The translations under genes and the position numbers were made by a program. A stretch of 44,881 nucleotides of DNA from a virus: IMG/VR virus record IMGVR_UViG_3300044611_002384, positions 1 through 44,881 of that record; one strand, given 5' to 3'. Below the pieces are notes generated by a model. The model had not been told where the DNA came from. It ran no database searches and saw nothing but the letters and a program-made list of their open reading frames with translations. Shown piece by piece: positions 12,701 through 41,272 of the stretch (its first letter is position 1; every line of letters starts with the position of its first letter).

Positions 12701-15700
12701 TCGATATCCATTCTTAATTCTTCAGCGGCTAAAAGAGCATTATCTGCTAGTGCTTGTGCTGCTTGTGCTTGAACTTCTGTGGCCTGTCTATATGCTTCTA
12801 TATATTGTTCTTGTACTGGATCCTTGCCTTCTTCGGCCATCTTTAAACTCTGATCAACGGTCATTGGATTGCCTTTAGCATCAACGCCTATCACGGACTG
12901 AAGTATTTGTTGTCCTTGTGGATTGGCCTCTATCATAGAACGTGCTAGTTTCGCTTCCATTTGTTTGGCAATATTTTCCGGTATCACAGACTTAATATTG
13001 TCTAGTCCAGCAAAAGCGTCTTGTCTGAATTGCAGACTTCCTAGTTCCCGTCCTGACGCTTTTCCGCTTATGGTCTTTGTGTAAGCACCCATTTGGCGAG
13101 TAAAATCGGCAAGCTCTCCAGAGTCTGATGTTAATAGTCTGCGAGCCAAGCCCCTAGCATTGTCCCCTAGTTGTTGTCTATCCTGTATAGCATTTAAGGC
13201 ATTACTTGCTGCCTCGCTATTATTTGCTAGTTCTTCTAGGGCTTTATTGCCATTATTGATAGCTCTCGTATGTTTGGCTAATGCTTCTTGATCTTTTTTA
13301 ATTTGACTATTAATAGCCTCTCTGTTTTCACCGGGCATACCAATTTTCTTTTTATTTTCATCTATACGGGCTTGTATTATATTTTTCTGTTCAATACTAT
13401 TTTTCATAGAATTATTAATAGCATTTGGATCTGTGGATCCACCCGGAATTAAACCAGAAGTTAAGCTTTTAACCCTAGTATTGAAGGGATCATTTAGCTG
13501 CTCTAGTGTTGGGGACTGACCCAAAGCTCTTGCTAAATCAAGCTCCGCATTAATTCTAATATCTGCTACCTTTCTATTCCACTCATCGCTTTTATCTAGA
13601 TTAGAATTATATTGATCTAATAAATTAATAGATGCCTGAAGAGTGTCATTATAAGCCTTTTGAATCGCCTGCCCGGTCTTTAGTGCCTCTTCTGTAAGTT
13701 TTGTTGCGTCCTGTACAAACGACATATCTTCTGCAAGATCGGCTAAGCCAACGTTACCTTGTCTATTCTGGATTTTTTCCTGTAGCTTTTCTCTCAGCTG
13801 GGTCTTCACTTGTTCGCTCATCTCAATTCCAGCAGCATCAAAAGACTTTTCTAGTTTTTCCATAATAGAATCAACATCACCATCCTTTGCACCCTTGAGA
13901 GCTTTTGGTAATTCGTCTTGTAAAATTTTAGCAGTTATAATATTATTTTTTAGCGTATCTCCTGCATCGCCTCCGCCTGCAATAGAAGCTGTTTGATTAG
14001 CGATTTGTTCAACTTCAGCCATTGAGTATGCGCTAATATTTCCTAAGGCATTTTCATTGGATCTATCCACGCTTCTAATCTTAGCATCGCCCGTAAGACT
14101 ATTGGCTCTCATAACAGCATCTGCTTCAAATTTTTCTAATTCTTGACTATATCTGAGCAGGCCTCCTTGGGCTCTTTTATATATGTCTATAAGATTGTCT
14201 GTCGCTGTTGCTAGTTCTCTAGATGCTCTAGCTAATACTTGTTGTTTTAATGCTAGTTCGCTATCAACTGCTAGTTGTTCCTTGCCTATATTCAGCGCTT
14301 CCTTTTTACCTTCTTCTGTGCTGAGCTGTTTTCTGATATCCTCTGGTGTTTTACCTTGTTTGGCTGCGTAGTCTATGTACTTATCCATAAAGATATCTTC
14401 TTCGCTTAATCCAGACTCGGCAAGTTGCTGATATGTTTGGCTGGCTCTAGCAAGTTGAGTATTTCTTTGATCTATAGAGTCTTTATTTTCTTCGTTGTAT
14501 TGCTCTTGCGTCTGATCTTTTCTTTTTTCTGGTAATTTGACTAATGAGTCTAAAAAGCTATTTATGCTTTCTGTACTTGTTTGGGATAATGCAACATCTC
14601 CTAGTTTTTCGGCTGCCTGAAGCTGATTCCCTATCTGTGTAACCAGAGACCTACCAGCTTCTCCTTCTACGCTTTGGCCAGTCAAAGCTCCTGTCACACC
14701 AGTAAAATCAAAAGCCCTAGACATACGCACCAGCTCGGACCCTCCAGTAAAATTAGCCTGTGCTCTCAAAGAATTAGCAACAGATACTTCTTTTTGAAAA
14801 CTAGACTGAGCATTAGAGAAGTTTACATCGGTGGCTGCCGCATCTAATTTTTTAAATGCTACACTGAGGTCGGAAGAGGTTTTGTCTAAAGCCTTCAGTG
14901 TATTCTCTAGTTTTTTATTATTTATAGCATTAAAAGCTCCTTCTATTCCTTTTACAATAGCTACGGTAACTCCTCCTATTAGAGCTCCTACTGGCCCGGC
15001 TATTTGACCGCCCAATAAAGCTCCGCTAGCCAATCCCTGACCAGCACCCTGTATTCCTCCTACTACACCAGCAGCTGCCACGCTGTCTCTCATCCCAAAA
15101 GACTCTATAAGTTTTGGTAATTGATCGCCAGCGACGGCTAGTCCTCCGCCAAAAGCCACCAATGAACCGCCAACCGATTGGAATTTTTTATCAAGACTCT
15201 CTCCAATTTTACCCATAGTTTTACCAAAAATTCCTAAGCTTTTGCCAAATAATTTAGAATTTATATCAGATGCAGAACTAAGGGCTTTTCCTATTCCGGA
15301 ACTAGCAAATCTAGAAACAGCATCTGGGGCTATCTCAGCAAGTTTTCCAAATTTTTGACCAGACTCGCTCTGCATAAATCTTTGTTGACGATATTGTTTA
15401 TTATTCTTACTAGATACCTCTTCCCTTAGAACGTCTGAGGTTAGTCCATTCTCTTTGGCGATATCGTCAAAAGCTATAGCAGCATTCTCTGCGCTGGTTC
15501 TGGTTTTGTTGAGCATATCTGACAGGACGGTATCTTTTTCTACAATCGTATCGAAAGAATCCGCACCCTTTTTCAGAGAACCCACAAGTCTGGCCGCTGC
15601 TTTATCTATCTCTTCAGCATTTCTTGAAGGATCCATCTCTTTTAATTTTGCGGCAAATTCTTCTTTAGCCGCATCGAGTTGCTCTTTATCTGTTGATCCT

Positions 15701-18700
15701 TTGAGGCTACTGCTTTGACTGAGTGCGCTGTATCTAAAGCCAATTTGTTGATTTTTAAGATTTTCAGCCAAGTCTTTTTCCCGACTCACAACCTTTGCTG
15801 CTAATGTTGAGCGGAAAGCATCTGCTGTTTGTCCGGATTGTTTAGCTCTATATGCAAAATATTCTTTTTGTTCTTCTTTGCGTTTTTTAACCTCGTCTTT
15901 CGCTGTGCTTGTACTGGACGGGGATGGGCCGGATGGGGATGGACCGGATGCTGGAGTCTCGGAAGCAGGTGCAGTTTCACCTGTGGGCTTAGCTGTATCT
16001 ATTCCTACTCTAGTATTAGTGGCCTCCACCAAGGATGATCCACCCCGACTCTTTTGAAGTTCATCTAGACGATCAAAAATTTTCTTAAGACTTTGTGCTC
16101 TGTCTTCATTACCAGATGCTCTCTTTTCTATGGATAATTTTCTAATACCTGCGGCCACATCCACAATAGCTTCACTTGCACTCTTTGTTCCAAGAGCTTG
16201 ATTGGCTATCGCGTCTTTAATAGTATTAATTAGTTCTTTTCCACCACTATTATTTTCTTTCGCACTCACTTCTACAAGAATAGATTTTAAGATTTTTTCT
16301 GATACTCCAGCTACTTCTCCTCCAACCTCAAATCTTTGGACTCCTACTGGACCACCCTTGTTATATCCCTTAATCTTATCAGCCTTGTTCATTCTATTTA
16401 ATTTACTATAACCAATTTGTTGTGCGGCCTTTTTATTGATAACAAATTCACCAGGAGTTAATAGTGCTGGTACAGTATCTTCTACAGAACCACCTGTTGC
16501 AAAGGGCTTTCTAGCATTATCATATTTTGGATTAAACTTAGCGTCTGGAGCACCCATTAATTGTCTAGCAAGATCTAGTTGTGAGGAGCTTGCTTGTGGT
16601 GTTGTGGTTCCGCTTAATAATACCTGTCTTAATTGATTGCTGTTGATTAATAAATCTTTTTTAGATGCTTTTCTCTTAAGCTCTAGAGCTAGGTAGTCCT
16701 TAAACTCTTGTTCTGTAAAAGCATTAGTATTAGCATACTTAACTAGGGCATCAAACTCACTATCTTTTAATCCTGTACCCTTTTGAAGACCATATACTTG
16801 TCCACCAAGAGCAAATTGTGAGCGACCAAATCTTTGTCTAGCCTCTAAACGACCCCTATCAAACTGACCATCTGCTACTTTACGATTTGCTGTTGCTTTT
16901 GAAGCTCTATTAGTAACATCTGTCATAACACCAGAACTAACACCTAGTAAACCAGCCAGTTGTTCATTTAGTCCACCGGGGAAGTCTATAGCCTTAGCCA
17001 TTGGGTCATAACCACCACCAGCAACGCCAAGAGCTTTCTCGAAAATTGAACCAGCAATATCTTCTATGTCCTTTGAGGCAACAGATCTTACAAACTTACG
17101 ATCCAAATTAGGTATGCTGCCAGAAGCTTTAGATATTTGCTCCCCAACTTCTCTGACCATTTTTTCAATACCTGCCCTAATTTTAGCTTGAACTCTCTTA
17201 GCAACATTAGGTGGTAATGCGCCGGTTTCTAGTGTAGCAGGAACGCCTCTCACAGACAGACCTGATTTGTCATCAGAAGCTCCGGGGGTTTTGATCTCTT
17301 GCTCTGATCTATCTCCAGTAATACCAACTACTGCTAATGATCTAGAAGCAGCAACAGTGCTATCTCTAGCGGCTTTATTTTTTGATATTATACCAGCATC
17401 AACTAGCTGCTGTAAGAATGAATCTTTTTTAGCTCTGTCTGATTGCTCAAGAGATTTTTTACCCAGCAGTTCGTAGTCGTATGGTATGCCAGCCTTTTGT
17501 GCAAGTGATATAAGCTTGGCCCTACCTAATTGTTCTAGTGCTTCTGCTTCTCCACCGACTGCGAATCTCTGTACTAGACCACCTAGAGCTTTTCTTACTC
17601 TATTTACTCTTGGGCCTTTGGTTCTCATAGCTTCAAGAGCTGGCTCTTTTGAACCACCAGAGGTAAATACCATGTTTTGTACTGGTATCCCAAACATTTC
17701 TTGAATATGTTCGGCTAGTCCTTCTACTCTTTTTGATTTAGAAATGATAGATAGATTACTGGGTTCGATTACCCCCTGCTTGATAAGATCTTGTAGTTGT
17801 TTACCAAACTGTGTTAGTCGTGCTTGTTTGGCGTCTTTTAATCTAGCTTTTGGGTCTCTAAAGTATTTTTGTAAAACTTCATCTTTAGCGGATGCTGTTT
17901 TGGCACTAGCATATGCGGCATCTCCAACTGTTCTTTGTAAAGTTCTATCAAAATCAACCGCACCACCACCCTCTTTGATAATCTTGTCTAGTGGTGATCC
18001 TGGGCTTATTCCCGGTCTTGGGAGCATAGAGCCCTTAGCATTTGGTAGATCGTCTATTAGCGGGAAACCGCCGTTGGCGAGTTTTTGAATTATACCACCA
18101 GCAGCTTTGGGTCTATATGTCGCATCTAGTTCTTTTCTTAACTCTTGAGCTTCTAGAAGCTTAATTGATCCTAATGATATAGAGTCTTGCTTTTCTTTTT
18201 GAGCTTCTTTAAATTGTGATAAAACAGATTCTGGAGATTGTTCAAGTTTATATCTTAATAGCTTACTATATAGCTCGGCGTCGGAAGTTGATTCATTTTT
18301 AAGTTTAACTTCATATAAATTATCATCACCTATTAGATCAATAGGAGCATTACTTTCATTGGAGGATGATGTGCCTAATCCAAGATATTTGGAGGCTCCT
18401 AGTTTTTTCTTAAGTAGTTCTTCTGCCAGTGGTCCTATTCGTGCGTCATAGCTTTTTTGTTTACGAAGTAGTGTATCTTTTGTATTTAATAGCGGCTCTA
18501 ATTCCTTTATCCCGCTAGCAAAATCTGCAACGCTCAAGTATTTAGATATTTTTTCTCTCTCGATGGAGGAACCTTGGCTGCTAATATAATCATCGTCTTC
18601 TATGTTTACGTTTTTGTTTTGATATTCAGAAATAGTCTTTTTGCCATATCCCCTTTTGCCAGTTCCCTTTAAGTTCTGTATGCTAACAGCACCACCGTTA

Positions 18701-20607
18701 GCATACCTATTCATCTTGTGAAGACTGCTGGCCCCTAGCGTTTCGACCGCCTTCTTCCGTATAACGAACTCACCCGGTTCCAACATGGCCGGAACAGTAT
18801 CTCCGTTACCAGAGCCAGGAACCAGTCCACCCCTAGCAAATTTTCTAACAATTCCTCCACTATTTAGTCCTGTTCCAGTAGACGGTCTCGACTTAATAGT
18901 ATCATCAAGTTTAAGTACAGAAGCATTTAATTTATTGGTTGAGTCTGTTAATATTTTTAAAGCTGATGTATTTTCTCTTATAGCATCACTAGCTCTAGCT
19001 GTTGTATCGTCTCTCTCCTTATCTTTGGCTCCACTAAGACTTTCTCCAATATTGCTGCCAACACCACGAGCACCACCACCCTTAGAAATACCGCCCATAA
19101 AGCCGCTACCAAACTGTCTAATAGCGGAAACGCCCTTTACTGCACCCATAATAGCAAGTATGGGTAGGATAGGTTTGAAAGCACTAGCTAAACTAATTAA
19201 ACCACTGGCAAGCCCGGTTACAATTTTGAACAAAGCCTGGAATGACTGACTCTTACCAACATCTCTAATCAGTGCTAAAAATTGTTCTCTAACCTTTGCT
19301 AATTGATTGGCTAAAGATTTTTGTGCGGTAACCTGGGCGTCGTATAAGCTACCCTGTCCCTTTTGCGCTACTGCCAATGCGTCCTGTGCTGTTTTAAATT
19401 GTTGAATAAGTGGAATAACCTTGCCGATCTGACGGAATCCACCAAGCTCTTCAACTATGGACGAGAATCTTAGGTCTCTAGGATCCAATTGGCTTAATGC
19501 GGCGCTTAGTCTTTTCACTGCCTCATACGGGCCGACGAATTTACCTTCTAGATCAGTTAGCTCGACCCCGTATTCCTTAAGCTGATCAATAGTTTTAGCT
19601 CTTTGAATACGTGTAAAAATTGTTCTCAAACCAGTAGCAATGGTTTCTGCGCTTTCACGAGTAGTTTGTCGAATACTTGTAAATACTGCTATAAACTCGT
19701 TCAGAGCGTCCGTTCCTTCGCTAACTCCTCTACTAGAAGCGGCGAACACACCACCGGTACGCTGAATAGCAGCAATAATATCTTTAGACTCAACAGCGAA
19801 AGCTGCTGCCACAGCATTGATCGAGCCTAGCGCTTTTTCTAGGTCTCCGGCTTCGAGACCGAACTGGCGAATAGCGGCAATAGCACCTTCTGTTGTATCT
19901 GTAAGATTGTCGAAAGATGGAGCTAGTTCGGTTTTTGCCAAGGCTGCTAGTGCTACTCTGGTCTCGTCAGCACTCAAGCCAGCTTGTGCTAAGGTAGAAG
20001 CTACGGACATTAAGCTTTTACTGCTAACACCAAGAGTTGTGGATAAGTTGGATATTTCTTTTTCTAGACTCTTAAGACCAATTTCACCCCTACCTGTTAC
20101 CTGTTGTAGTTTCACTAGTTCTTTGTCGAATTCTACGAAAGCCTGAAACCCACTATTAACAGCATTGATTAATGCAAAGACACCGCTAGTAACAACGCTA
20201 AATGCGGCAAATCTTCGAATAGCAAGAGCTGATTGTTTTCCGAACTCTTCCATCTCTGTTGTAGCAACTTTGATATTTTTTGCTGTTTGACCAACGGATG
20301 TGGAGGTTTTAGAAAAAGCATTATCTGTTTTACTAGTAGTAGATTGTACAGAAGAAAGGGAGGACGATAGGTTTCTAAGAGCCGAGTCTAAAGCTGTAGT
20401 ATTGTTCCTTGCTTGAATTAATGATGCGTTCATAGCATCTAGTCTATTTGTGACATTATCAATAGATCTTGCTGCTTGGGGACTAACATTAACTTTTACG
20501 TCCGCAGAAACTGTTTGAAATTCTCTACGGATCTGGGCAACTACTGTCTTTAGGTTACTTGGTGCTTGTAGATTGATCTGTGCTGTTAGATTAAAAGCTT
20601 GGGCCAT
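9703..20607 (-). CDS. Tail tape measure protein with inserted enzyme-like domains
   Basis: At 3634 residues this is the longest gene in the window. It follows the tail assembly genes, as tape measures do. Residues 1-500 are helical and match the phage tail tape measure core (FDKELVKLQQVTGRG, then helices with SAETIATGLRTIF), ending in hydrophobic helices near 455-495. From 580 to 1430 linker motifs recur, such as DTVPAMLEPGEFVI (603-616) and DTVPALLTPGEFVI (1377-1390), with short (F/L)AxGG motifs. Between them sit segments with nuclease-like residues (PID 755-757, EVK 766-768) and a HAD-like DFDRT (885-889). The rest is long coiled coil with Gly/Ala-rich hydrophobic stretches, one of them LVVALGAGVGGLFAV. 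It sets tail length and probably passes into the host during ejection. Confidence 0.85.
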   Translation of the reverse strand: MAQAFNLTAQINLQAPSNLKTVVAQIRREFQTVSADVKVNVSPQAARSIDNVTNRLDAMNASLIQARNNTTALDSALRNLSSSLSSVQSTTSKTDNAFSKTSTSVGQTAKNIKVATTEMEEFGKQSALAIRRFAAFSVVTSGVFALINAVNSGFQAFVEFDKELVKLQQVTGRGEIGLKSLEKEISNLSTTLGVSSKSLMSVASTLAQAGLSADETRVALAALAKTELAPSFDNLTDTTEGAIAAIRQFGLEAGDLEKALGSINAVAAAFAVESKDIIAAIQRTGGVFAASSRGVSEGTDALNEFIAVFTSIRQTTRESAETIATGLRTIFTRIQRAKTIDQLKEYGVELTDLEGKFVGPYEAVKRLSAALSQLDPRDLRFSSIVEELGGFRQIGKVIPLIQQFKTAQDALAVAQKGQGSLYDAQVTAQKSLANQLAKVREQFLALIRDVGKSQSFQALFKIVTGLASGLISLASAFKPILPILAIMGAVKGVSAIRQFGSGFMGGISKGGGARGVGSNIGESLSGAKDKERDDTTARASDAIRENTSALKILTDSTNKLNASVLKLDDTIKSRPSTGTGLNSGGIVRKFARGGLVPGSGNGDTVPAMLEPGEFVIRKKAVETLGASSLHKMNRYANGGAVSIQNLKGTGKRGYGKKTISEYQNKNVNIEDDDYISSQGSSIEREKISKYLSVADFASGIKELEPLLNTKDTLLRKQKSYDARIGPLAEELLKKKLGASKYLGLGTSSSNESNAPIDLIGDDNLYEVKLKNESTSDAELYSKLLRYKLEQSPESVLSQFKEAQKEKQDSISLGSIKLLEAQELRKELDATYRPKAAGGIIQKLANGGFPLIDDLPNAKGSMLPRPGISPGSPLDKIIKEGGGAVDFDRTLQRTVGDAAYASAKTASAKDEVLQKYFRDPKARLKDAKQARLTQFGKQLQDLIKQGVIEPSNLSIISKSKRVEGLAEHIQEMFGIPVQNMVFTSGGSKEPALEAMRTKGPRVNRVRKALGGLVQRFAVGGEAEALEQLGRAKLISLAQKAGIPYDYELLGKKSLEQSDRAKKDSFLQQLVDAGIISKNKAARDSTVAASRSLAVVGITGDRSEQEIKTPGASDDKSGLSVRGVPATLETGALPPNVAKRVQAKIRAGIEKMVREVGEQISKASGSIPNLDRKFVRSVASKDIEDIAGSIFEKALGVAGGGYDPMAKAIDFPGGLNEQLAGLLGVSSGVMTDVTNRASKATANRKVADGQFDRGRLEARQRFGRSQFALGGQVYGLQKGTGLKDSEFDALVKYANTNAFTEQEFKDYLALELKRKASKKDLLINSNQLRQVLLSGTTTPQASSSQLDLARQLMGAPDAKFNPKYDNARKPFATGGSVEDTVPALLTPGEFVINKKAAQQIGYSKLNRMNKADKIKGYNKGGPVGVQRFEVGGEVAGVSEKILKSILVEVSAKENNSGGKELINTIKDAIANQALGTKSASEAIVDVAAGIRKLSIEKRASGNEDRAQSLKKIFDRLDELQKSRGGSSLVEATNTRVGIDTAKPTGETAPASETPASGPSPSGPSPSSTSTAKDEVKKRKEEQKEYFAYRAKQSGQTADAFRSTLAAKVVSREKDLAENLKNQQIGFRYSALSQSSSLKGSTDKEQLDAAKEEFAAKLKEMDPSRNAEEIDKAAARLVGSLKKGADSFDTIVEKDTVLSDMLNKTRTSAENAAIAFDDIAKENGLTSDVLREEVSSKNNKQYRQQRFMQSESGQKFGKLAEIAPDAVSRFASSGIGKALSSASDINSKLFGKSLGIFGKTMGKIGESLDKKFQSVGGSLVAFGGGLAVAGDQLPKLIESFGMRDSVAAAGVVGGIQGAGQGLASGALLGGQIAGPVGALIGGVTVAIVKGIEGAFNAINNKKLENTLKALDKTSSDLSVAFKKLDAAATDVNFSNAQSSFQKEVSVANSLRAQANFTGGSELVRMSRAFDFTGVTGALTGQSVEGEAGRSLVTQIGNQLQAAEKLGDVALSQTSTESINSFLDSLVKLPEKRKDQTQEQYNEENKDSIDQRNTQLARASQTYQQLAESGLSEEDIFMDKYIDYAAKQGKTPEDIRKQLSTEEGKKEALNIGKEQLAVDSELALKQQVLARASRELATATDNLIDIYKRAQGGLLRYSQELEKFEADAVMRANSLTGDAKIRSVDRSNENALGNISAYSMAEVEQIANQTASIAGGGDAGDTLKNNIITAKILQDELPKALKGAKDGDVDSIMEKLEKSFDAAGIEMSEQVKTQLREKLQEKIQNRQGNVGLADLAEDMSFVQDATKLTEEALKTGQAIQKAYNDTLQASINLLDQYNSNLDKSDEWNRKVADIRINAELDLARALGQSPTLEQLNDPFNTRVKSLTSGLIPGGSTDPNAINNSMKNSIEQKNIIQARIDENKKKIGMPGENREAINSQIKKDQEALAKHTRAINNGNKALEELANNSEAASNALNAIQDRQQLGDNARGLARRLLTSDSGELADFTRQMGAYTKTISGKASGRELGSLQFRQDAFAGLDNIKSVIPENIAKQMEAKLARSMIEANPQGQQILQSVIGVDAKGNPMTVDQSLKMAEEGKDPVQEQYIEAYRQATEVQAQAAQALADNALLAAEELRMDIESLFAGLETKLAKILETAKTDSEVPRPPVEAQPAPQKPLSTGRSKGKSQPPDESNKDAGAVVGSIFNALVVALGAGVGGLFAVNEVNRFRDRREDRRNKNKEKTPAEADKSKDTPDSDTDSKTKTPDADTDSGRSSRSPRGGGRGFSRKAAKAIPGLGLIFTLMGAFSALGAGYSSESGESADDYGMSGDSALDVLMDIRAILDERLCCCCKEMSDALKKEPQKQPSEMKISPVPPKPDQIKPLENNNIRVEENKPKEALSEAKDQKTEVETRSLGLDVLQGALELGGFIPGIGEFADLANAAISSGRAAMSKDPKNRMDFGIDAGLNAAAAIPFVGYAANATKITKRAIQNPLVEAGANMAVDTAAEIALSPLQQDPVNVPKTMTGKDVSTKEAERIIDKQRADAGEAPLYKGVKQPSTDYEKEYEKWKEAQNDSAMIDLTNPSTSSSPEINTIADMAKQAMTPGSIYTHDTHAEEILNKILVALNEIKQVIESKTSSVGTTERKELTSDSSASSASSLLQTPTQTETPQQSTQTQVSTTSASKPQVYSSTTPKSDTKQPVATNNRTAEQEKAIKDKEKADKEFAEKYRKEKPEYGTTADQIAGGKSSLEAKSARGEKLSEREEFELEQGRTDEYFRRRNNGERDLDYDQMVYARQQRAVAYENKDSSLRAQTSPINATEANVAANGGSPGPQNGLTAPQSAATEASVASATSPQVYGSPTAQLYANKIDKTKKWRTLEKAHGNVESLERAQAEKLGMSYGDFLADKDKIGAFRQTKEYKSAKDKVSSARTDYLAVKDAPTVGDDFDKSGHRKNVGYEQMMASRRDSYLSRFRPEVREKMMTDKDRERYMSAASGPIPTAVPTQQMSQQTGTGPQTQQQNSGATATMITLDPKALEAMTSFNNSFGKYVADLGNITIPNEVKISGNYTVDLKISGAAAIEALDKKIKEIANTLVSGTDFTSALNQLRDETSLATKNAVKSSSSRGTTSSGGSQQGQIA

Positions 20608-24357: not shown

Positions 24358-25302
24358 TTATGTATAAATTATTTCTGCTGTCATTCTAACAGCGGCTCTG
24401 TGCATGTTCGGATCTATGGATTCTACCTCAAAAACGCTAATATTCTTAAGCCAGCATTTCTTCCAAGGGTATTGGCCAATTATATCAGGATACATTAAGG
24501 GCGTAGCCTTTAAAGAACCATTATACTCTAAGGGATATTTATTGTTGGCTGTTAGAGCATTAGTATCAAATAGCCAAATCATTAGATCTTGCTGTAATCT
24601 TAAAATATCCACAATTTTATTTCTGTCGTTTTTATTATCGGCCAATATATGAAAAGCAAAATCTTGCTCCAGAACCAATCCACCACTACCTATTTCGTGG
24701 GGTCTAGAGCGCGATCTTGGCAAAGACTCAACGACTATAGCAGGAAGTTGAATAACGTGATTCTTTCCAATTTTCCAACTACCATTAGATAGTCTATCTA
24801 TATTTTTTGTGGTTGTTGGCCCATTATATTGAATTAAGTTAAACCAATCACTATCATTAGCCCTATATGTCTGAACATATCTATAGCTATAGTTACATCT
24901 AACATTAGATGATGCAGATATCGGGGTGTTGAAAATAATACGACCAAGTGGATAGTTAATTGTATAGTCTGTATTCGGCACCACGCTACCATTTACTGTC
25001 ACATTAAGATTGGATATAGGACTCCTATTGCAATAAGTTATATTTTCCCATACCCAGTCTTTTCTTTGTGCTTCCCAAACAGTTCTAGCAGTATAAGCCT
25101 TATCATCTGCTACTATAAGTTTATCGTATGAGTCATTTTGAAGAGTATTTTCATTAATAGTTACGTCAAACCATCCTCCTATGCTAAGAAATGCCCAGTC
25201 CAAGAAAAGCTTTAGATTAGCCTCTATGCTATTTAATAAAAGGTCTTCTGTGATATTCTTCACATTTTTAAATACTGGGCTTGGCTGACATATATTATTC
25301 AT
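24358..25302 (-). CDS. Virion structural protein (neck / tail region)
   Basis: A 314-residue protein if it starts at ATG 25302, which overlaps the previous stop as ATGA and fits the dense coupling of the block. The frame also extends to 25347, but that start lies inside the previous gene. It has a beta-rich N-terminal part, a middle YPLGRIIFNTPISA segment, and a C-terminal region with ILADNKNDRNKIVDILRLQQ. The profile and position suggest a tail completion or neck protein. No named family is recognised. Confidence 0.55.
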   Translation of the reverse strand: MNNICQPSPVFKNVKNITEDLLLNSIEANLKLFLDWAFLSIGGWFDVTINENTLQNDSYDKLIVADDKAYTARTVWEAQRKDWVWENITYCNRSPISNLNVTVNGSVVPNTDYTINYPLGRIIFNTPISASSNVRCNYSYRYVQTYRANDSDWFNLIQYNGPTTTKNIDRLSNGSWKIGKNHVIQLPAIVVESLPRSRSRPHEIGSGGLVLEQDFAFHILADNKNDRNKIVDILRLQQDLMIWLFDTNALTANNKYPLEYNGSLKATPLMYPDIIGQYPWKKCWLKNISVFEVESIDPNMHRAAVRMTAEIIYT

Positions 25303-25940
25303 TGTGAGAGGGCCTTTTCTAAAAGTTTTTGTACGTCGGGCTTGCAAGCCTCTATTGCTCTAGTTATCCAGTTATCATTGATAGTTCCTGAGTATTCTGG
25401 TGGTACTCCCCAACCCTGACCATCCGAAGCTTTCATGATAGCTCCTCCTGTTCTAGATCTACTATGAGGACCTATAAACACTTCATAGTTGTCTACTAGA
25501 GTGGTCGTACCTTCTAATAATAGCCACTCTAGCCAAGGTATAGTAGCCCCAACAGCACTTCTTTCAATACTAGCTAAATTTAAACTTAATACATCAGAAA
25601 AATTAGCTCTAATCATTTTGATAGTAAAACTACTTTTAATTCTATTGTTCATTATTTGAGGTGGTTTATATTCTACAATAGTGTTATTTATCCAAGCATT
25701 AATTAAATCTTCCACTCTCATTGCTGCGTCTGGTATTCCAAGCTCTAGTCTAAGTTGCCCATTAACAAGTGAATTATATTCTGGTTGAACTAAAATACTT
25801 TCTTTAATTATAGAGAATATATTACTTTGTACATATTTACTTGCTTTATTCATAAAGGCGGACGCCTCAGGTAATAAAGCATTAAGGATACCATTTCCTA
25901 TTTCTGAATTATTCTCTATGAGTTTTAAAGATAGCTTCAT
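25299..25940 (-). CDS. Neck / tail completion candidate
   Basis: A 213-residue protein, mixed helix and strand, containing VGATIPWLEWLLLEG and VFIGPHSRSRTGGAIM. The second phrase occurs in a conserved neck-like protein type of phages, though I cannot name the family with certainty. It starts at an ATG touching the stop of the adhesin-like gene and is coupled to the next gene by an ATGA overlap. Its place between connector genes and the tail tube fits head-tail joining. Confidence 0.5.
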   Translation of the reverse strand: MKLSLKLIENNSEIGNGILNALLPEASAFMNKASKYVQSNIFSIIKESILVQPEYNSLVNGQLRLELGIPDAAMRVEDLINAWINNTIVEYKPPQIMNNRIKSSFTIKMIRANFSDVLSLNLASIERSAVGATIPWLEWLLLEGTTTLVDNYEVFIGPHSRSRTGGAIMKASDGQGWGVPPEYSGTINDNWITRAIEACKPDVQKLLEKALSQ

Positions 25941-27373
25941 TATACTGTCGGTAAATAGTAAGCCGCCTTATACCATTCGTCTTCGGAAGGAATCCAGTAG
26001 TTTGCGTCTGGATTTTTAGCAAAAGACACACCAGAGTTGGCTCCGTTTAAAGTATAAACTCCGCTTTCTGTGGTTAGACTGCTTTGTGGTCCGGATACCA
26101 TGCCGTTGTGTAGCCAGTTTACGAATCTAGCAGCTCTAAACCAAGTAATATAGTTTACTGGCTTGTTACCCATATTAGCTTTTACTGTATAGTCGGAATT
26201 AATGCCTCCTCGTATATTCGATGCCATAGTAGAAACATAAGCACTATAGCTATCCGCACCCTCTATGCTTAATAAGAATTGAGCATATTGACTGTTCGTT
26301 ATAGGATATCTAGAAATACAATAACTGTAAGAAACAGATCCATACCCTGTAGAATTAGCAGGATTGTTTTGTTCAAGCACAGGTACAAATTCAATTAGAG
26401 TATTTCCTTCTGGAATAGGATATTTGGAACAAACCCTAAACCCGTAGTTTATAGCGCCGCTGTTTGGTGCTGCGAACTTTCTTGATATAGACGATAGATC
26501 AGAAGCTATGCTTGTATTATAGCTACCTCCTAGTATGCCTCTGTTTGTACTTTGTATGATACTATCATTCCATTCCCATGTATTTCCTGATTGATCCTGG
26601 GTTCCAAAATAGCTGCTGGAACCATTTGTTCCTACACTAGTAATATTACCAATAGCTCCATTCCAGGTAGCATTACTTCCATAATTAGCAAAATTACCAG
26701 TGTTACCAGCGGAGCCGTTTCCTATGCCGTTAGCGGAAACCCTTGTTGGAGCAGAGTTGCTTCGTGTCGCATACATTGCATACGGAGGAACAGTTGTGGT
26801 TGGCGCTACCGTGGTGGTTGGAACGCCCGTGGTTGTTGGACCACCGGTTGTGGTTGGACCGCTTGTTGTTGGCTCACCCGTGGTGGTTGGGCCGCTGGTT
26901 GTTGGAACGCCCGTGGTGGTAGGCGCTGTTGTGGTTGGCGCTGTTGTGGTTGGCGCTGTTGTGGTTGGCGCTGGCGCTGTTGTGGTTGGCGCTGTTGTGG
27001 TTGGCGCTGTTGTGGTTGGCGCTGGCGCTGTTGTGGTTGGCGCTGTTGTGGTTGGCGCTGTTGTGGTTGGCGCTGGCGCTGTTGTGGTTGGCGCTGTTGT
27101 GGTTGGCGCTGGTGTTGTAGCGGAGCCATTATCTATAATTATCTCTGTAAGAACCCACGGGAGCATTTCGCTCTTACTATCAATAAGATATGTATTGCCA
27201 TCAAGAAGACTAGGTAGAGAATTGAACAAGCTGGAGGAGGAGAAAGAGACATATCCTGTACCACTTTCATTAATACTAAAAATAGTGTTAAAGTTAGGTT
27301 TAATATCGCTAGTGGCTAGAACTAGGGAAGAACCATTATATGTTAACATTGTTAATTTTTTAGTAATATTCAT
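25940..27373 (-). CDS. Thr/Pro-linked adhesin-like protein with circularly permuted FGE-type domain
   Basis: A 477-residue protein in three parts. Residues 1-84 are a short module with SGTGYVSFSSSSLFNSL, also found twice in the protein at 39892-41142. Residues 85-197 are Thr/Pro linkers. Residues 198-477 belong to the formylglycine-generating enzyme / sulfatase-modifying factor family, but its halves are swapped. YATRSNSAP...QSGNTWEWND...GFRVCS, normally the C-terminal half, comes first; GYGSVSYSYCISRYPITNSQ...IPSEDEWYKAAYY, normally first, comes second. The usual catalytic Cys pair near the GGS motif is absent, so it is likely a binding module with a C-type-lectin-like fold. It sits among neck genes, so it may be displayed on the virion. 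Confidence 0.75.
   Translation of the reverse strand: MNITKKLTMLTYNGSSLVLATSDIKPNFNTIFSINESGTGYVSFSSSSLFNSLPSLLDGNTYLIDSKSEMLPWVLTEIIIDNGSATTPAPTTTAPTTTAPAPTTTAPTTTAPTTTAPAPTTTAPTTTAPTTTAPAPTTTAPTTTAPTTTAPTTTGVPTTSGPTTTGEPTTSGPTTTGGPTTTGVPTTTVAPTTTVPPYAMYATRSNSAPTRVSANGIGNGSAGNTGNFANYGSNATWNGAIGNITSVGTNGSSSYFGTQDQSGNTWEWNDSIIQSTNRGILGGSYNTSIASDLSSISRKFAAPNSGAINYGFRVCSKYPIPEGNTLIEFVPVLEQNNPANSTGYGSVSYSYCISRYPITNSQYAQFLLSIEGADSYSAYVSTMASNIRGGINSDYTVKANMGNKPVNYITWFRAARFVNWLHNGMVSGPQSSLTTESGVYTLNGANSGVSFAKNPDANYWIPSEDEWYKAAYYLPTV
26780..27117. repeat. Thr/Pro linker repeat tract in the permuted-FGE gene
   Basis: Near-perfect 15-base and 6-base units (GTTGTGGTTGGCGCT with GGCGCT insertions) encode APTTT-type units on the minus strand. 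Long overlapping open frames on the other strand are shadows of this low complexity. Similar tracts lie in the genes at 1209, 22993 and 39892. Confidence 0.9.
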
Positions 27374-29572: not shown

Positions 29573-30028
29573 TCATGTAATATTGATGTCTACTTTAACG
29601 TAACCGTCAGCATCTTTGCCGCTAAGAAAACGACCGACCTTAACGCTGTTTGTTGCAACTGTTGTAAGCTTACCAACATTGTCATAGTAAGCATCAGCAC
29701 CAGCAGCTGGGGTAACGCCAGTAGCAACCATGTTAGTTGTTACCTGTCCCTGACGGAGAAGTGTTACCTTGCTACCTAGCTGTACTTCGTCTTTGTGCCA
29801 ATTGATGTGCTGTCTTGTAAGATCAAGATTAACAACATCATTTAGTAAAAGACCAGCTGGCTTAGTGCCTGTGTTAGCAGTTGGATAAGCAACGACAGCA
29901 CCAGCATCATCCATGCTGACCCCATTGCCACTTGTTACGTGTACAACGATACCGCCTCTTTCAGCAACTGTGTTGCAGAAGAAGGAGATGTCTGTGTATG
30001 ACTCGATACGATCTGGTTTTAACGCCAT
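29573..30028 (-). CDS. Capsid decoration-type protein
   Basis: A 151-residue protein starting at ATG 30028 (MALKPDRIESYTD), with GGGAG 8 bases upstream; the start 6 bases further up is weaker. It is beta-rich, with many Val/Thr/Gly and a repeated (V/G)KVT-like texture (GSKVTLLRQGQVTT). Size, position just before the major capsid gene and composition match a decoration or head-stabilisation protein. The name is from position, not a diagnostic motif. Confidence 0.6.
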   Translation of the reverse strand: MALKPDRIESYTDISFFCNTVAERGGIVVHVTSGNGVSMDDAGAVVAYPTANTGTKPAGLLLNDVVNLDLTRQHINWHKDEVQLGSKVTLLRQGQVTTNMVATGVTPAAGADAYYDNVGKLTTVATNSVKVGRFLSGKDADGYVKVDINIT

Positions 30029-30030
30029 GT

Positions 30031-30657
30031 TCACTCTCCCTTATTAAGTTTTTTACCTAGTCTATTATAAACAAAATCAACTAAAGCTGCTCTTGTGCTT
30101 TCGATTTCTGTGGAGGCGTTACCACCAACACTTAGATCGATTTCTTGCTCAACTTCGACGTTCTCTAGTACAGAAGCATCTACTTCCTGGGAAGCTTCTT
30201 CTTTTTCTTCCTCTTTCTCTTCTACAACAGGCTTCTTCTCCTCTTTTGCTTTTTTAGCAGCTAGGAGGCTTGTCATAGCTTCGAACGAGGCATCGTCTAG
30301 AGAATCAAATTTTTCTACTGTGGCTTCGGCTACTTCGGCCTCGATGCCATTATCTACGAGAGCGGCCATTCTCTTCATCTTCTTTTCTTTCTTGACCATC
30401 TCTTCGTCCTTCTTCTTATAAGCAGCGATAACTTCTGATGCTGCTTCTAGTTCAGCCTTAAGATTGGCTACTTCTGCTTGGGCTGTTTCTAGAGCCGAAA
30501 TGGTCTCTCTGGCTTCAGCAAGTTGTGTTTCGAGTTCTGTTGTTTTTTCTTGTAGGCTTGTAACGGAAGCCTGTGCTTCTGAGCAGTCATTCATAGCTAC
30601 TACCTCTGTTTCAGTTGTGGTAACTTCGTTTGTGATAACTTCGGTCTGTTCACTCAT
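30031..30657 (-). CDS. Internal scaffold product, same frame
   Basis: Within the protease gene, ATG 30657 follows a strong AAAGGAG site, 6 bases upstream. Translation from it would give a 208-residue product beginning MSEQTEVITNEVTT, the coiled-coil scaffold without the protease. Nested protease/scaffold pairs are known in lambda (C and Nu3). Here the evidence is the internal ribosome site plus the domain boundary. Confidence 0.6.
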   Translation of the reverse strand: MSEQTEVITNEVTTTETEVVAMNDCSEAQASVTSLQEKTTELETQLAEARETISALETAQAEVANLKAELEAASEVIAAYKKKDEEMVKKEKKMKRMAALVDNGIEAEVAEATVEKFDSLDDASFEAMTSLLAAKKAKEEKKPVVEEKEEEKEEASQEVDASVLENVEVEQEIDLSVGGNASTEIESTRAALVDFVYNRLGKKLNKGE

Positions 30658-31514: not shown

Positions 31515-33740
31515 TTATTTATGACCCGATAGATCAGAATACACCAGACTATAAAAATAGGCCTTCGTATGTTTTTGTTCTTCGGCGGTGAGTTGTTTTT
31601 TGAGATCTTTACTTGCTTCAATATTCCAGCTCTGGTATTCGGCAAATTTGGTCGATACATCAATACTATTGATAGTATTGAGCTTCGCCATTAGTATGTC
31701 TTCGTTAATAGCAACGAATGGCTCAAGCGAAAACAATATTTTTGTTTTAGTATTTTCTGCCTCAGAATATTCTGTGCTAGATAAACTTCTCATATTTTTC
31801 TTGTTATAGAAATCTAGTAAGACGGGATTAAGAATACTGGCTATTTTTTCTTGAGTGTCTAAAGCCCATAGCTGTAAAGACGCTCCTGTTCTTGGGCTAA
31901 AGTCTTTAGTTTTTCTTTTTTCTTTATCTTTTGTATTTTTGGGCCTACCTTGTCCTGGTTGTCCTGGGTTTGACTGCTGCTCTGGTAGTGCTGGAGTTTT
32001 CATATCCAGTAAGCTTTTTTCACCCTTCTTCTTTGGCTTAAGCTCTAGGTCTACTTGACTAGGAGTCGCAAGACCATTTTGTAGAGCAATCTTCTTAAGA
32101 CTTTCTTCTGTTTGTGGATCATGCCAAGGACCAGATTTCGGAACCATTCTTTCGTTCTCTCTGTCTTTGTTTTCTCTGTTGAGTCTGCTCTTTTCCATTT
32201 CTGGATCAAATCCAAACATCTTCTGTAGCATTTCATCACTAACAAGATTACGATCAGCTAGCTGTACTAGTAATGCCTTCTCCGCGTCTTCATTACTTAA
32301 ATCCATCTTGTCAAACTCTATTTTTGCTGGATACTTAAAACCCATGGCTTTTTGAACCATGGCAATTTCATGCTTCCAGAACGACATTAACACCTTACGA
32401 CCATACTCTAGTCTTTGTGTCAGGGTCTTTAACGAAATGAAATTATTAGTGGTTCCAGCGGCGCCATAAGTACCCGTTAGTGTTGGAGGAATACCTAGAC
32501 CAGCATAAATACTATTAAGATGTGGAGTATATTTACCTTCACCTAAAAATTGATGTACATTAGTGTTAGATTGTAGTAGTTCAATGTCTGGACCCCAAAC
32601 AATATCCATCGTGCCACCACCAACGTTATTCTGTAGAATATCTCCAAGCTTTGATGCTGCGGCTGCTGTCGGAGCAATTTTATGTTCTAAACTACCTAAT
32701 TTAAAAATACGAATATTATTGATTGCACCATCGAGAGCAGCAAGGTCTGCTAGCTTTAGCTTTTCAACAACATTAATATCATCAAGAATAGCATAAATCA
32801 TAGGATATGCCCAAACCTGCCAATCGTCTTTCTTATAGTGAAATACGAGAGTTTTGTCTGGATCTAAAACATAGCCTTTTTTAGTTTTTGCTGCCTCTAT
32901 AAGCTGAGGTGGAAGTTGATCAACTATTGCTTTTTCTTCTGGACCTTTGGGGCTATTTATCATTTTTCTAAGCATTGCTGGCATATTAATTGCATATGTT
33001 TTATTGCTTACAAATGAAGATAAAGAACCGCCCACCACATCTACATATGTAGGATCTATGAAAGTATACTTCCAAGGAATTTCTCTCTTCTCAACTTTAA
33101 TTTCCTCAGAATTTACTATCAGGTCAGGACTAGCAATCGATCTATATAGATTATCTGCTACCTTAACGCTGACTTTGGCTGTTTGTCTATTAATAACAAT
33201 ATTACCAGCTTTATAAAGATTATTAAGAAATCTTTCTGATCTGTCCTCACCCTTTACTTTCTCGAACCAGTTTCTATAAAATTTTTCTATTCTTTTATTT
33301 GGATGAACCAGCCTAATGCCTTGACAAGCAAAATCACCCATAAGATCAATAACGTTTTTTACTAGGCCAACTCGACTATAAACATCGTTAGCTGCCATAA
33401 AGATTTGTTTAATCTCTCTTGGCACTGCTTCGTCTGGTCGGAAAAAGTCGTAATCTGCTCTGGTTAGTCCTGGTCTTCCAGAAGTGTTGGGTAGAAGTCC
33501 AGAAAAGTCTCTGTATCTACTGTTATTTGCCTTTGCGTGTTGAAAACCACCAAACTCATCTAAAGATTTCGACGCTTCTGATAATGCAACTTTTTTGCCT
33601 TCTATATCACCGTCATTCCATGTAACATAGGCTTCTTGGTTAGCATTGGCCGCATTTTGTACGGCATCACTCTTTGGGTATTTTTTTGGCATAATAGTAT
33701 TAGATAGTATTGTAATATGTTTATATCTTATGATACACAC
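31515..33740 (-). CDS. Portal protein
   Basis: This is the first gene after the large terminase, in standard order. The 741-residue frame opens at a GTG 3 bases after the terminase stop; ATG 33692 (MPKKYPKSDAVQNAAN) is the other candidate, and neither has a convincing ribosome site. The helix-rich core has a portal-like region, QNNVGGGTMDIVWGPDIELL, then NSIYAGLGIPPTLTGTYGAA, and later FWKHEIAMVQKAMGFKYPAK. The C-terminal 150 residues after a Pro/Lys-rich linker are helical. The portal forms the dodecameric channel through which the terminase pumps DNA. Confidence 0.8.
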   Translation of the reverse strand: MCIIRYKHITILSNTIMPKKYPKSDAVQNAANANQEAYVTWNDGDIEGKKVALSEASKSLDEFGGFQHAKANNSRYRDFSGLLPNTSGRPGLTRADYDFFRPDEAVPREIKQIFMAANDVYSRVGLVKNVIDLMGDFACQGIRLVHPNKRIEKFYRNWFEKVKGEDRSERFLNNLYKAGNIVINRQTAKVSVKVADNLYRSIASPDLIVNSEEIKVEKREIPWKYTFIDPTYVDVVGGSLSSFVSNKTYAINMPAMLRKMINSPKGPEEKAIVDQLPPQLIEAAKTKKGYVLDPDKTLVFHYKKDDWQVWAYPMIYAILDDINVVEKLKLADLAALDGAINNIRIFKLGSLEHKIAPTAAAASKLGDILQNNVGGGTMDIVWGPDIELLQSNTNVHQFLGEGKYTPHLNSIYAGLGIPPTLTGTYGAAGTTNNFISLKTLTQRLEYGRKVLMSFWKHEIAMVQKAMGFKYPAKIEFDKMDLSNEDAEKALLVQLADRNLVSDEMLQKMFGFDPEMEKSRLNRENKDRENERMVPKSGPWHDPQTEESLKKIALQNGLATPSQVDLELKPKKKGEKSLLDMKTPALPEQQSNPGQPGQGRPKNTKDKEKRKTKDFSPRTGASLQLWALDTQEKIASILNPVLLDFYNKKNMRSLSSTEYSEAENTKTKILFSLEPFVAINEDILMAKLNTINSIDVSTKFAEYQSWNIEASKDLKKQLTAEEQKHTKAYFYSLVYSDLSGHK

Positions 33741-33742
33741 AT

Positions 33743-35776
33743 TTAGCGATAAATACCTTTATAAATATCGTTATTTGCGGATTCTCGGAACCAACTTGGC
33801 CCTTTATACATATCTCCCGAAGCAGAATTGGGAGACTGTCTTAGGTTGGACCCGATTATATCATAATTGACTGGCTGTAATTCTCTAAAAACTTTTCTAG
33901 CTAACATATTAGCTATTAGCAAAGCGCTATATCGGTCTTTTCTTAGTTTGCCCTTTTTTCCATTGGGTAGTTTAATATCGGGCGTATCCCACCTGTCTCG
34001 CGCATTGGGGCCTGTGCTAGTCTGTGTCATTACAATAGTTGTTAGTTCGTTTTTTAATTCTTCTATCTCTAAAATGCACTCACTCTCGGAGTCATATAGA
34101 TTTTCGAAGCTTGCCTCCAGAATGTCTTTATTTTCTTTATCTAGAGCTAATGCTAAACTGAGTTGGTCAAACCTTGGAAATAATAAAACCTTGTCTTCTA
34201 AGTCTTTACGCAATCCATGGTTAGATTGAGCTGTCCAGTCTGCTCTAGCGAACTGTATCATATGCAGAATGTGTAATCCTGATTGTGTGTCGCTATCTTT
34301 GGGTTTGTCTTCAACAATTGGCCACATTAGATGTTCCCCATCCTCTAGTTTGGAGGGGTCGTGTAGAGCTTCCTCTACAGCAACACCACCACCCTGTGCG
34401 TCTATTCCTATTGCGTTGGTTGGAAACACCTTCATTAAATTTCTAATTTTTCTTGCACAAAATCCATAGAAGTCATGCTCATTGACCAGACCTGTTTTTT
34501 GACGATCTTTAAAATTATTTCTATTGGTTGTCCAACAATAGACTATTCTAGAATGATCTTTATGTAGTTCTAAAACCACTATACTAAAATTATCTTTTTC
34601 TGAGGCTGGGTCGATACCATAAACATACTGCAAGTCGGGATTGCCTTTGGTAGAAACATCAAATAGCACCGGATTGCCATTTACCATAACTGGGTTAGCT
34701 TCGTTAGTAACACAGCTTTCTATAAGGCTTCGCTTAAAAAATCCGTCACTATCAGCAGTAAAACATGCTGCATATTCCATGTTATATATGCCACTATGGA
34801 TTGTTGCTTTGGCTCTGGAGATTTGTTTATCGTCCATGAAGCCCTTGGGAATAAGTTCGTATGGCATTCGTACTATAGAGTAGTCTTTCCAATTAAAGCT
34901 ATCCGGAACTTCACCCTTAAATATTTCTTCTAGTTTTCTTTGGTCTCCCTGGCTCTGAATAATATCCTTGTATCTTCTCCAATATTGGGCAAAATGCTTG
35001 AAGCTATAGTCTGCGGTTCCAGCTATGATAGCCTGATTGCCCTTTTTTATTTGTATTTCTTCTAGTTGCTGATTCCATAGACCTGCTTCTGTCATTGCTT
35101 TTTTCTTGGCTTCTTCTTTTACATTCTGTATTGGGTTGGCACTAACTGCCGCGAAGCCTGAAACTACGGTTTCGTAGATGTCTGGTGATATAGAAGCAAA
35201 TTCGTCCGCTATAATAATGTGTGCTCTAAGACCTCTAATTTTTGACCCGTCGCCCATTGGCACCGCTATTGTCCAGCTTTCGCCAAGTCTCATTGTGCAT
35301 CTATCAACGTCTCGCCTTGGCCCATCATCATTGCCATTAAAAATGCTTCGTAATATCGCACTGTTTCGCCAAATAGTTTCCATGTATTCGAATACTAGTT
35401 TGCTCTGACGAAAAGCCGCGCCGACAACAACGATTTTGGTGCCAGGATTAAGTATACATCTTAATGTACAATACAGAGCCATCAAGAACGACTTACCAAA
35501 ACCACGACTAGCAACAAACATAGGAAATGGGCGTGTCCAAAACTCTTCTAGTATAGCTATTTGTATAGGATGAAGCTCTATATCAAATAGTATTTTACAG
35601 GTAAATCCGAAGTTTCTAGGCTGCCTAAGAATACGCATTAGATGCAAATCAGGATTTTCTATATCCTCTTTGCTTCTGTGAATCATAAGATTCTGGTCTA
35701 TGGATAGGAGAGATAGATCTCCTAATTCTAGCCAAGCATCATCAAATGCTGTCTTTTGGTGGCGCGTGTTTTTCAT
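33743..35776 (-). CDS. terL: Large terminase subunit (TerL)
   Basis: A 677-residue packaging motor ATPase and nuclease. Walker A is ASRGFGKS (89-96), Walker B IIIADE (187-192). The C-terminal RNase-H-like nuclease has YGIDPASEKDNFSIVVLE with the first acidic residue, GIDAQGGGVAVEEALHD, and DRYSALLIANMLAR near the end. Length is typical. The start codon lies 35 bases inside the ERCC4-type nuclease gene upstream, and the stop is close to the portal start, which agrees with coupling. It cuts concatemeric DNA and drives it into the prohead through the portal. Confidence 0.93.
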   Translation of the reverse strand: MKNTRHQKTAFDDAWLELGDLSLLSIDQNLMIHRSKEDIENPDLHLMRILRQPRNFGFTCKILFDIELHPIQIAILEEFWTRPFPMFVASRGFGKSFLMALYCTLRCILNPGTKIVVVGAAFRQSKLVFEYMETIWRNSAILRSIFNGNDDGPRRDVDRCTMRLGESWTIAVPMGDGSKIRGLRAHIIIADEFASISPDIYETVVSGFAAVSANPIQNVKEEAKKKAMTEAGLWNQQLEEIQIKKGNQAIIAGTADYSFKHFAQYWRRYKDIIQSQGDQRKLEEIFKGEVPDSFNWKDYSIVRMPYELIPKGFMDDKQISRAKATIHSGIYNMEYAACFTADSDGFFKRSLIESCVTNEANPVMVNGNPVLFDVSTKGNPDLQYVYGIDPASEKDNFSIVVLELHKDHSRIVYCWTTNRNNFKDRQKTGLVNEHDFYGFCARKIRNLMKVFPTNAIGIDAQGGGVAVEEALHDPSKLEDGEHLMWPIVEDKPKDSDTQSGLHILHMIQFARADWTAQSNHGLRKDLEDKVLLFPRFDQLSLALALDKENKDILEASFENLYDSESECILEIEELKNELTTIVMTQTSTGPNARDRWDTPDIKLPNGKKGKLRKDRYSALLIANMLARKVFRELQPVNYDIIGSNLRQSPNSASGDMYKGPSWFRESANNDIYKGIYR

Positions 35777-36215
35777 ATACTCTTTTCATAATAGATACGG
35801 CCATTTTTTCTGCGTTCTCGGGTCCGCCGCAAAATAGTATATGTATGCCGTAGTTTAGTTGTATTAGGGTGATGTATTTTAAAATATAATTAGCAGAAAT
35901 CTTTAAATTGTCCCAAAGCTTCTTGGGAATATCCGAACCAACAGGAAAAGAGTAGATATCTTCTAGATCAAATTCAAAGAGCATAAATGGATATCTCATT
36001 TTACTCATGCGTTCAAGAACATCTTTGAATCTCTTCTCAGATATATTATTAGCTATTTCTGACACGCTTCTTTTTCGTTCTATGCAAAGAATATCTTCTA
36101 GGCCTTCTATACTATAGTCACCAGTATCGAGCTTCTTTTTGGCCGTGGCATGAAGCTCAAACTCCCACGGAAGTTGTTCTCTGGTGTCTATAATAACAGT
36201 AAAGTCATCAATCAT
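35742..36215 (-). CDS. ERCC4-type nuclease
   Basis: A 157-residue protein with the ERCC4/XPF nuclease signature: IIDTREQLPW near the start (D10, E13), LDTGDYSIEG (D33), and IERKRSVSE (E46-R47-K48). The usual ERKxxxD acidic residue is a Ser at the matching place. It overlaps the terminase start by 35 bases and the previous gene by an ATGA. XPF-type enzymes cut branched DNA, so it could resolve branches before packaging or act in recombination. The family call is firm; the role is inferred. Confidence 0.75.
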   Translation of the reverse strand: MIDDFTVIIDTREQLPWEFELHATAKKKLDTGDYSIEGLEDILCIERKRSVSEIANNISEKRFKDVLERMSKMRYPFMLFEFDLEDIYSFPVGSDIPKKLWDNLKISANYILKYITLIQLNYGIHILFCGGPENAEKMAVSIMKRVYEKHAPPKDSI

Positions 36216-41142: not shown

Positions 41143-41197
41143 TTTGGTGTCCTATTATTAATGTAGCACATGTTATGATTTACACCGCATCGGGGTG

Positions 41198-41225
41198 TTG
41201 ACTTTACAAAATTTTCTGATAGGCT
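41198..41225 (+). promoter_or_regulatory. Possible promoter of the S8 protease gene
   Basis: TTGACT (41198) and TAGGCT (41220) lie 16 bases apart, 48 bases before the start. The -10 is weak, so this is tentative. Confidence 0.35.
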
Positions 41226-41272
41226 GGCAACTAGTGGCAAAAATGTTCACAAAGTTTCGAAAGGACTCGACT

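Follow-up and report, generated by a model that had tools for sequence, protein, structure and literature searches.

A circularly permuted FGE/C-type-lectin-like domain in a putative stalked phage protein

The window analysed here, a stretch of 44,881 bp comprising a whole viral record, contains the gene of a 477-residue protein (Table 1) in which the two halves of an FGE/SUMF1-like domain stand in exchanged order. The locus raises the question of whether the exchanged halves constitute one domain, how such a domain arose and how widely it occurs, and what it might do for the virus.

Table 1. Positions, strands and supporting evidence for the 477-residue protein gene, its parts and virion genes recognized in the window
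Feature	Position in window	Strand	Basis
477-aa virion-block protein gene	25940-27373	(-)	ORF and translation; same gene in contigs L003, L004 and L005
N-terminal domain, residues 1-87	27113..27373	(-)	phmmer recurrence in other phage proteins
Thr/Pro/Ala repeat stalk, residues ~86-197	26783..27118	(-)	Translation; ORF lengths in L003, L004 and L005
C half of FGE-like domain, placed first, residues 200-326 (YATRSN...GNTWEW...GFRVCS)	26396..26776	(-)	PF03781 profile 145-253; C-half HMM on L003 gene; structural match to FGE C-terminal half
N half of FGE-like domain, placed second, protein end, residues 327-477 (IEFVPV...EDEWYKAAYYLPTV)	25943..26395	(-)	PF03781 profile 35-122; N-half HMM on L003 gene; structural match to CarF and TvpA N-terminal halves
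Structural cement protein gene	29573..30034	(-)	Pfam PF22758, E 1.6e-9
Portal protein gene	31515..33740	(-)	PHROG 2739, E 6.3e-10
Terminase large subunit gene	33743..35776	(-)	PHROG 2, E 1.4e-24
Virion structural, perhaps tail, gene, two genes downstream	24358..25347	(-)	Weak: PHROG 11431, E 7.8e-5; PHROG 807, E 0.0062

The only Pfam family matching the whole protein at E ≤ 0.1 is PF03781, and it does so in reverse: positions 26432-26701 correspond to profile positions 145-253, and are followed in the chain by 25961-26329, corresponding to 35-122, with the protein ending directly after WYKAAYYLPTV. The whole-protein score (44.1 bits) lies above the curated cut-off of 23.3, yet the N-to-C order expected of PF03781 is absent, as it is from the 100 C-N units of the viral census described below. 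Because this order departs from the family definition, we refer to a circularly permuted branch of the FGE-like superfamily. A window query with its halves swapped retrieved 80 bacterial loci, mainly from Planctomycetes and Verrucomicrobia, at 35-47% identity and mostly with the near-whole query aligned. Swapping raised the score above that of the native query in each of the 93 bacterial ORFs matched, two partial matches becoming one. Among 97 bacterial ORFs with a match, from the loci of this search, the halves are arranged as NC in 88, NNC in three and NCNC in one, with the C half only in five and CN in none. The original prediction, made from the nucleotide sequence, had read the C-terminal segment as preceding the N-terminal one and had proposed a profile search with exchanged halves; both the Pfam matches and the swapped query agree with it, and we take residues 200-477 as a confirmed circularly permuted FGE/C-type-lectin-like domain.

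Relatives of this form were sparse in phage and plasmid records when these were searched with single permuted units. Neither the native nor the swapped window protein matched any of 50,697 phage records, and among plasmids the swapped form gave only one weak, partial match, in a Streptomyces plasmid. A second permuted unit (L172) had no phage match and the same plasmid as its sole other match, and a third (L144) had only one weak, partial phage match with 49% covered. Viral contigs proved richer. A less biased view comes from the swapped window query, which identified 52 loci, 14 of them (in 11 contigs) with C-N units, sometimes several per protein, and many of the others with N followed by C. 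Searching with an alignment of 19 permuted units (A1) brought up 222 relatives; we retained the best 80 stretches, representing 75 loci, and half-domain HMMs were built from 85 canonical bacterial domains. The resulting census of 129 non-contained viral ORFs, in which permuted units are deliberately over-represented since 75 loci entered through the permuted alignment, comprises 83 ORFs containing one or more C-N units, 44 containing canonical N-C units (a count that includes L212, whose apparent N-C-N reflects a third cut point), two of these with both, and four with an N half only. In L172 the permuted unit is nearly the whole protein (315 residues stop to stop), and one record of 151,782 bp (G004) carries ten permuted domains. 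The idea that the permutation might be a private accident of the window gene was not borne out: a large phage family of permuted domains exists.

A corresponding survey covered 582 bacterial genomes of two phyla (288 and 294), namely those of two bacterial relatives, at E ≤ 1e-40 with at most eight candidates scored per genome, and listed no match spanning the permuted profile. Any match at this threshold was confined to 18 of the 288 and 11 of the 294 genomes. The bacterial maximum was 246 bits, none of the matches listed starts before profile position 61, and the 12 bacterial matches fetched all lie in canonical N-C proteins. Applied to six viral records, this profile yielded 15 single matches at 303-410 bits; all except that of the window span positions 4-22 to 298-303, and the window match spans 10-271.

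The chain is not opened at the same point throughout the family. In canonical relatives a spacer of 8-18 residues separates WYKAAYY from YATQS (85 domains), and the original prediction placed the cut in this loop, between WYKAAYY and YATRSN. This holds for the window's lineage, the only one in which the rare cut between WYKAAYY and YATRS was seen, but in most relatives the chain opens one loop further on, between YATQSD...GDG and NxANY (92 units measured), so that the C half starts at HMM position 1 in the window and at ~7-18 in most others. The third cut point, within the N half and immediately preceding YWIPSLDEWYKAAFY, was seen in the initial unit of L212:8588-10831, where the second unit has the common cut. 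Domains may also be nested. In L239 (G601:C1:53800-55800), a 3,063-residue ORF on one contig, a domain in canonical order appears to be nested within the N half of a permuted domain. Such nesting would require neighbouring termini, as permutation does; an out-of-register duplication is an alternative reading. A similar C-N-N-C string occurs in L171:7244-12619.

How the permuted order came about was attributed in the original prediction to a tandem duplication that lost its outer halves. Some viral contigs (e.g. L121, L123, L127 and L128) do encode canonical FGE-like domains in linkerless tandem (N-C-N-C or longer), and the N-C-N-C arrangement was found in 16 ORFs, many of them near-identical. 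Because such proteins exist they are a plausible substrate for permutation by duplication with loss of the outer halves, but no ancestral intermediate of the window gene was found, and this part of the prediction stands as plausible.

The number of origins was addressed with a tree of 99 of 149 deduplicated rows (from 230), with all domains set in canonical order (45 of 84 permuted, 32 of 43 bacterial and 22 of 22 canonical viral rows). In the free tree the permuted label needs two changes, and two canonical bacterial rows stand beside permuted groups; constraining the 45 permuted rows to one clade gave a log-likelihood 20.45 above that of the free tree (p-AU 0.73). A single origin of the permuted domains is thus admissible and favoured, though not proved. 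Permutation probably happened a single time in phages, the resulting module then spreading to appear in one to several copies per protein; the event is probably old because the large permuted phage family fits one clade. A competing account, which we consider rather unlikely, is that the window permutation is independent of the common phage family and derives from canonical domains in tandem that were cut at the preceding loop. Half-domain trees need two changes for the N half and three for the C half, and in the latter the window pair lies nearest the canonical rows; this placement, together with the different cut point, is what keeps an independent origin of the window variant under consideration. 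The existence of linkerless tandem canonical viral proteins and the two canonical rows beside permuted groups in the free tree also fit it. However, the full-domain tree joins the window pair with the permuted L101 (SH-aLRT 95), the one-clade tree has the higher likelihood, and the N-terminal domain of the window protein recurs in proteins with permuted units. A single origin remains the favoured reading.

Structure prediction supports the view that both halves form one compact FGE/C-type-lectin-like fold. The AlphaFold (AF2) model of window positions 25943-26788 (alignment A2, 64 rows) is one compact domain with a mean pLDDT of 85.9 and a pTM of 0.86; ten-residue pLDDT means are 85-98 over model residues 51-280, 73-74 over 31-50 and below 50 over 1-30. 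By VIA-align, which is sequential, model residues 31-121 match the C-terminal half of FGE (2q17_A 192-303, Z 6.5; human FGE 1y1e 257-367, Z 5.7), residues 129-282 match the N-terminal half of CarF (5aoh_A 2-162, Z 6.1, 133 residues), and residues 123-282 match TvpA (2y3c 53-215, Z 5.5). All VIA-align matches of the permuted model have Z below 8 and are singly modest, and a lower-ranking match (7spq, Z 4.6) extends across the two halves. As a control, the model of a canonical bacterial relative, L012 (alignment A3, 24 rows, pTM 0.87), aligns end to end over residues 1-280 with TvpA (Z 20.2), CarF (19.8), human FGE (18.5) and Mtd (1yu3, 10.6). Half-wise matches of the permuted model to FGE-fold proteins, in swapped order, versus end-to-end matches of the control are the contrast that a permutation predicts. 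Foldseek against the PDB and a BFVD fold search each gave no match to the permuted model at E ≤ 0.001. Single-sequence PDB searches returned six weak rows for the native form (best E 0.008, the protease DegQ; sulfatase modifying factor 2 at E 0.36) and none for the swapped form; PDB searches by profile, unlike these, obtained matches.

The same evidence bears on the possibility that the C and N halves come from different FGE genes through a chance fusion, and either do not fold together or engage in domain swapping with a neighbouring copy. Pfam by itself reports two separate partial matches, and the AF2 input alignment was mixed, combining permuted rows with bacterial C halves, both of which would suit such a protein. 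Against this, the halves jointly cover almost the whole canonical domain with little overlap, the C-N order is repeated in 83 ORFs, proteins scarcely larger than one C-N unit exist (e.g. L172), and a single chain is modelled with high pTM. Unrelated half-domains are disfavoured by this recurrence in viral ORFs, by the near stand-alone copies and by the AF2 model, and we regard them as very unlikely.

The window gene has the same arrangement in three further IMG/VR contigs. L003 (152,676 bp) is perhaps the same phage, because it is 100% identical to the window over 12.8 kb; L004 (22,522 bp) is about 99.4% identical, and L005 (56,145 bp) is 96% identical in the domain, with a different and shorter stalk. 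Beyond the two half matches PF03781 finds nothing in these three records, so that no canonical copy was detected elsewhere in them. Stalk length (window positions 26783-27118) varies among near-identical phages, the stop-to-stop ORFs of L003, L004 and L005 measuring 481, 464 and 428 residues with most of the variation falling in the stalk. L005 departs from the window more often in the C half (93% identity) than in the N half (98%). This pattern would suit a diversity-generating retroelement (DGR) target protein with its variable region in the C half, as would the fold itself, which DGR variable proteins also use, TvpA and Mtd aligning to the canonical relative. DGR variable proteins accompany a reverse transcriptase, however, and none (PF00078) was detected in any of 15 records with permuted domains, L003 included, although these records may be fragments; on the lack of this enzyme we rejected the DGR reading as highly improbable. 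Misassembly of a canonical gene into swapped order is hardly credible: the contigs are metagenomic, the repetitive stalk is prone to misjoins and the identical L003 may not be independent of the window, but L004 and L005 (the latter at 96% with a different stalk) share the order with many diverged relatives, and on the strength of these further contigs and relatives we rejected an assembly artefact.

With the circularly permuted domain accepted, its function can be approached through the gene's surroundings and composition. The terminase, portal and cement genes lie upstream of the 477-residue gene in the same block, in keeping with the earlier assignment to a virion block; the direct neighbours have no PHROG match, and terminase relatives among named phages are distant (~25% identity among the matches listed). 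Elsewhere in the window, a 3,634-residue ORF downstream in the virion block (9703-20607) is perhaps a tape measure or fibre protein, a subtilase-family (S8) peptidase gene (41195-42517) lies on the strand opposite to the block, and an ERCC4-type nuclease gene (35742-36215) overlaps the terminase gene start. The N-terminal domain of the window protein has no Pfam match. By phmmer it recurs in permuted-unit proteins of L216, L159, L204 and L214, with weaker matches in two proteins that lack permuted units. Thr/Pro-rich stretches accompany the permuted order in the viral census, being present in 67 of 83 permuted ORFs versus 1 of 46 others. Twenty nearby proteins were also compared, comprising 19 hand-picked large ORFs of relatives, close to permuted genes or in some cases several kb away, and the window's next downstream gene: seven match tail-fibre, tail, structural or connector PHROGs (L172, L150 three times, L175, L191 and L204), three are metabolic (ribonucleotide reductase twice, and PhoH), two belong to unnamed families and eight have no match.

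Lectin-type folds are a main phage tool for host recognition, and Mtd is a phage receptor-binding protein of the C-type-lectin fold. Taken together, we consider it likely that the window protein is a stalked virion adhesin built on a circularly permuted, non-enzymatic FGE-like fold. In such a protein (i) the N-terminal domain, common to other phage proteins, would anchor the chain to the particle, (ii) the ~110 residues of Thr/Pro/Ala repeats would, given their composition, form an extended stalk, and (iii) the last 278 residues, permuted in sequence order and of predicted FGE-like, C-type-lectin-type fold, would make up a single domain. The natural N and C ends of this fold would be bridged by a short connection and the chain opened in a loop elsewhere. 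Since the chain is opened in another loop, the stalk attachment site would differ from that of the bacterial form, and the permutation may change the outward-facing surface. Binding of a host-surface ligand by the permuted domain appears the most likely role, judged by fold, stalk and context. Alternatively, the protein could be a neck or head decoration or fibre, because the gene sits between head and tail genes.

The original prediction derived a binding role from the missing catalytic Cys pair. This pair, which we take to be located in the C half of FGE, is named in PDB titles of human FGE as C336 and C341. The stretch from the GG to the GFR motif in the window C half contains no Cys; the catalytic pair is therefore absent, as predicted, and the window protein is not an FGE enzyme. 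At least two Cys occur in this stretch in only 3 of 124 segments of viral ORFs, both orders pooled, and in none of the canonical bacterial relatives checked (24, drawn from 80 loci). Binding remains plausible, but the missing Cys is no argument for it by itself, as all 24 of these relatives lack two Cys there.

Among the titles and abstract openings of papers listed from an open-access collection, we found no report of a permuted FGE-like or C-type-lectin-fold phage protein. According to excerpts of a survey of 224 jumbo phages, no 'FGS' domains of this fold were found (PMC7824862), whereas FGE-like domains, in permuted form, are present here in viral contigs of 201, 230 and 244 kb. Profile-based annotation is likely to miss or split permuted domains, as the two Pfam fragments illustrate. 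Occurring naturally, with several cut points, near stand-alone copies and canonical relatives, the permuted family constitutes an unusual natural experiment on changes of fold topology, and its members are specific candidates for the receptor-binding proteins of uncultured phages. Many large environmental phages carry the swapped form, frequently on proteins that are stalked and tail-fibre-like, which suggests that phages have redesigned a surface-binding domain in a way of their own. More tentatively, and as a possibility towards which we do not yet lean, large environmental phages may have evolved their own permuted FGE/C-type-lectin branch as a stalk-mounted adhesin module. The stalk would have moved to another face of the fold so that a different surface points hostward; with cut points moving between at least three sites and domains nesting, topology itself would be a changing trait of receptor-binding proteins.

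Set against known systems, the window protein resembles the FGE-sulfatase/SUMF1-like family (PF03781) in scoring above the family cut-off, but differs in placing the C half before the N half, in the absent Cys pair, in its stalk and in its position within a virion-gene block. The linkerless tandem FGE-like proteins are likewise viral and have several FGE-like domains, but these abut in canonical N-C order, and the 46 non-permuted ORFs, of which only one has a Thr/Pro-rich stretch, include them. The DGR variable proteins TvpA and Mtd share the superfold, as their alignment with the canonical relative indicates, but are not permuted. The closest homologues found are the canonical FGE-like proteins of Planctomycetes and Verrucomicrobia (e.g. 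L012, L013 and L028), which also lack the Cys pair in the 24 checked and which, unlike the window protein, keep the canonical order of the two halves.
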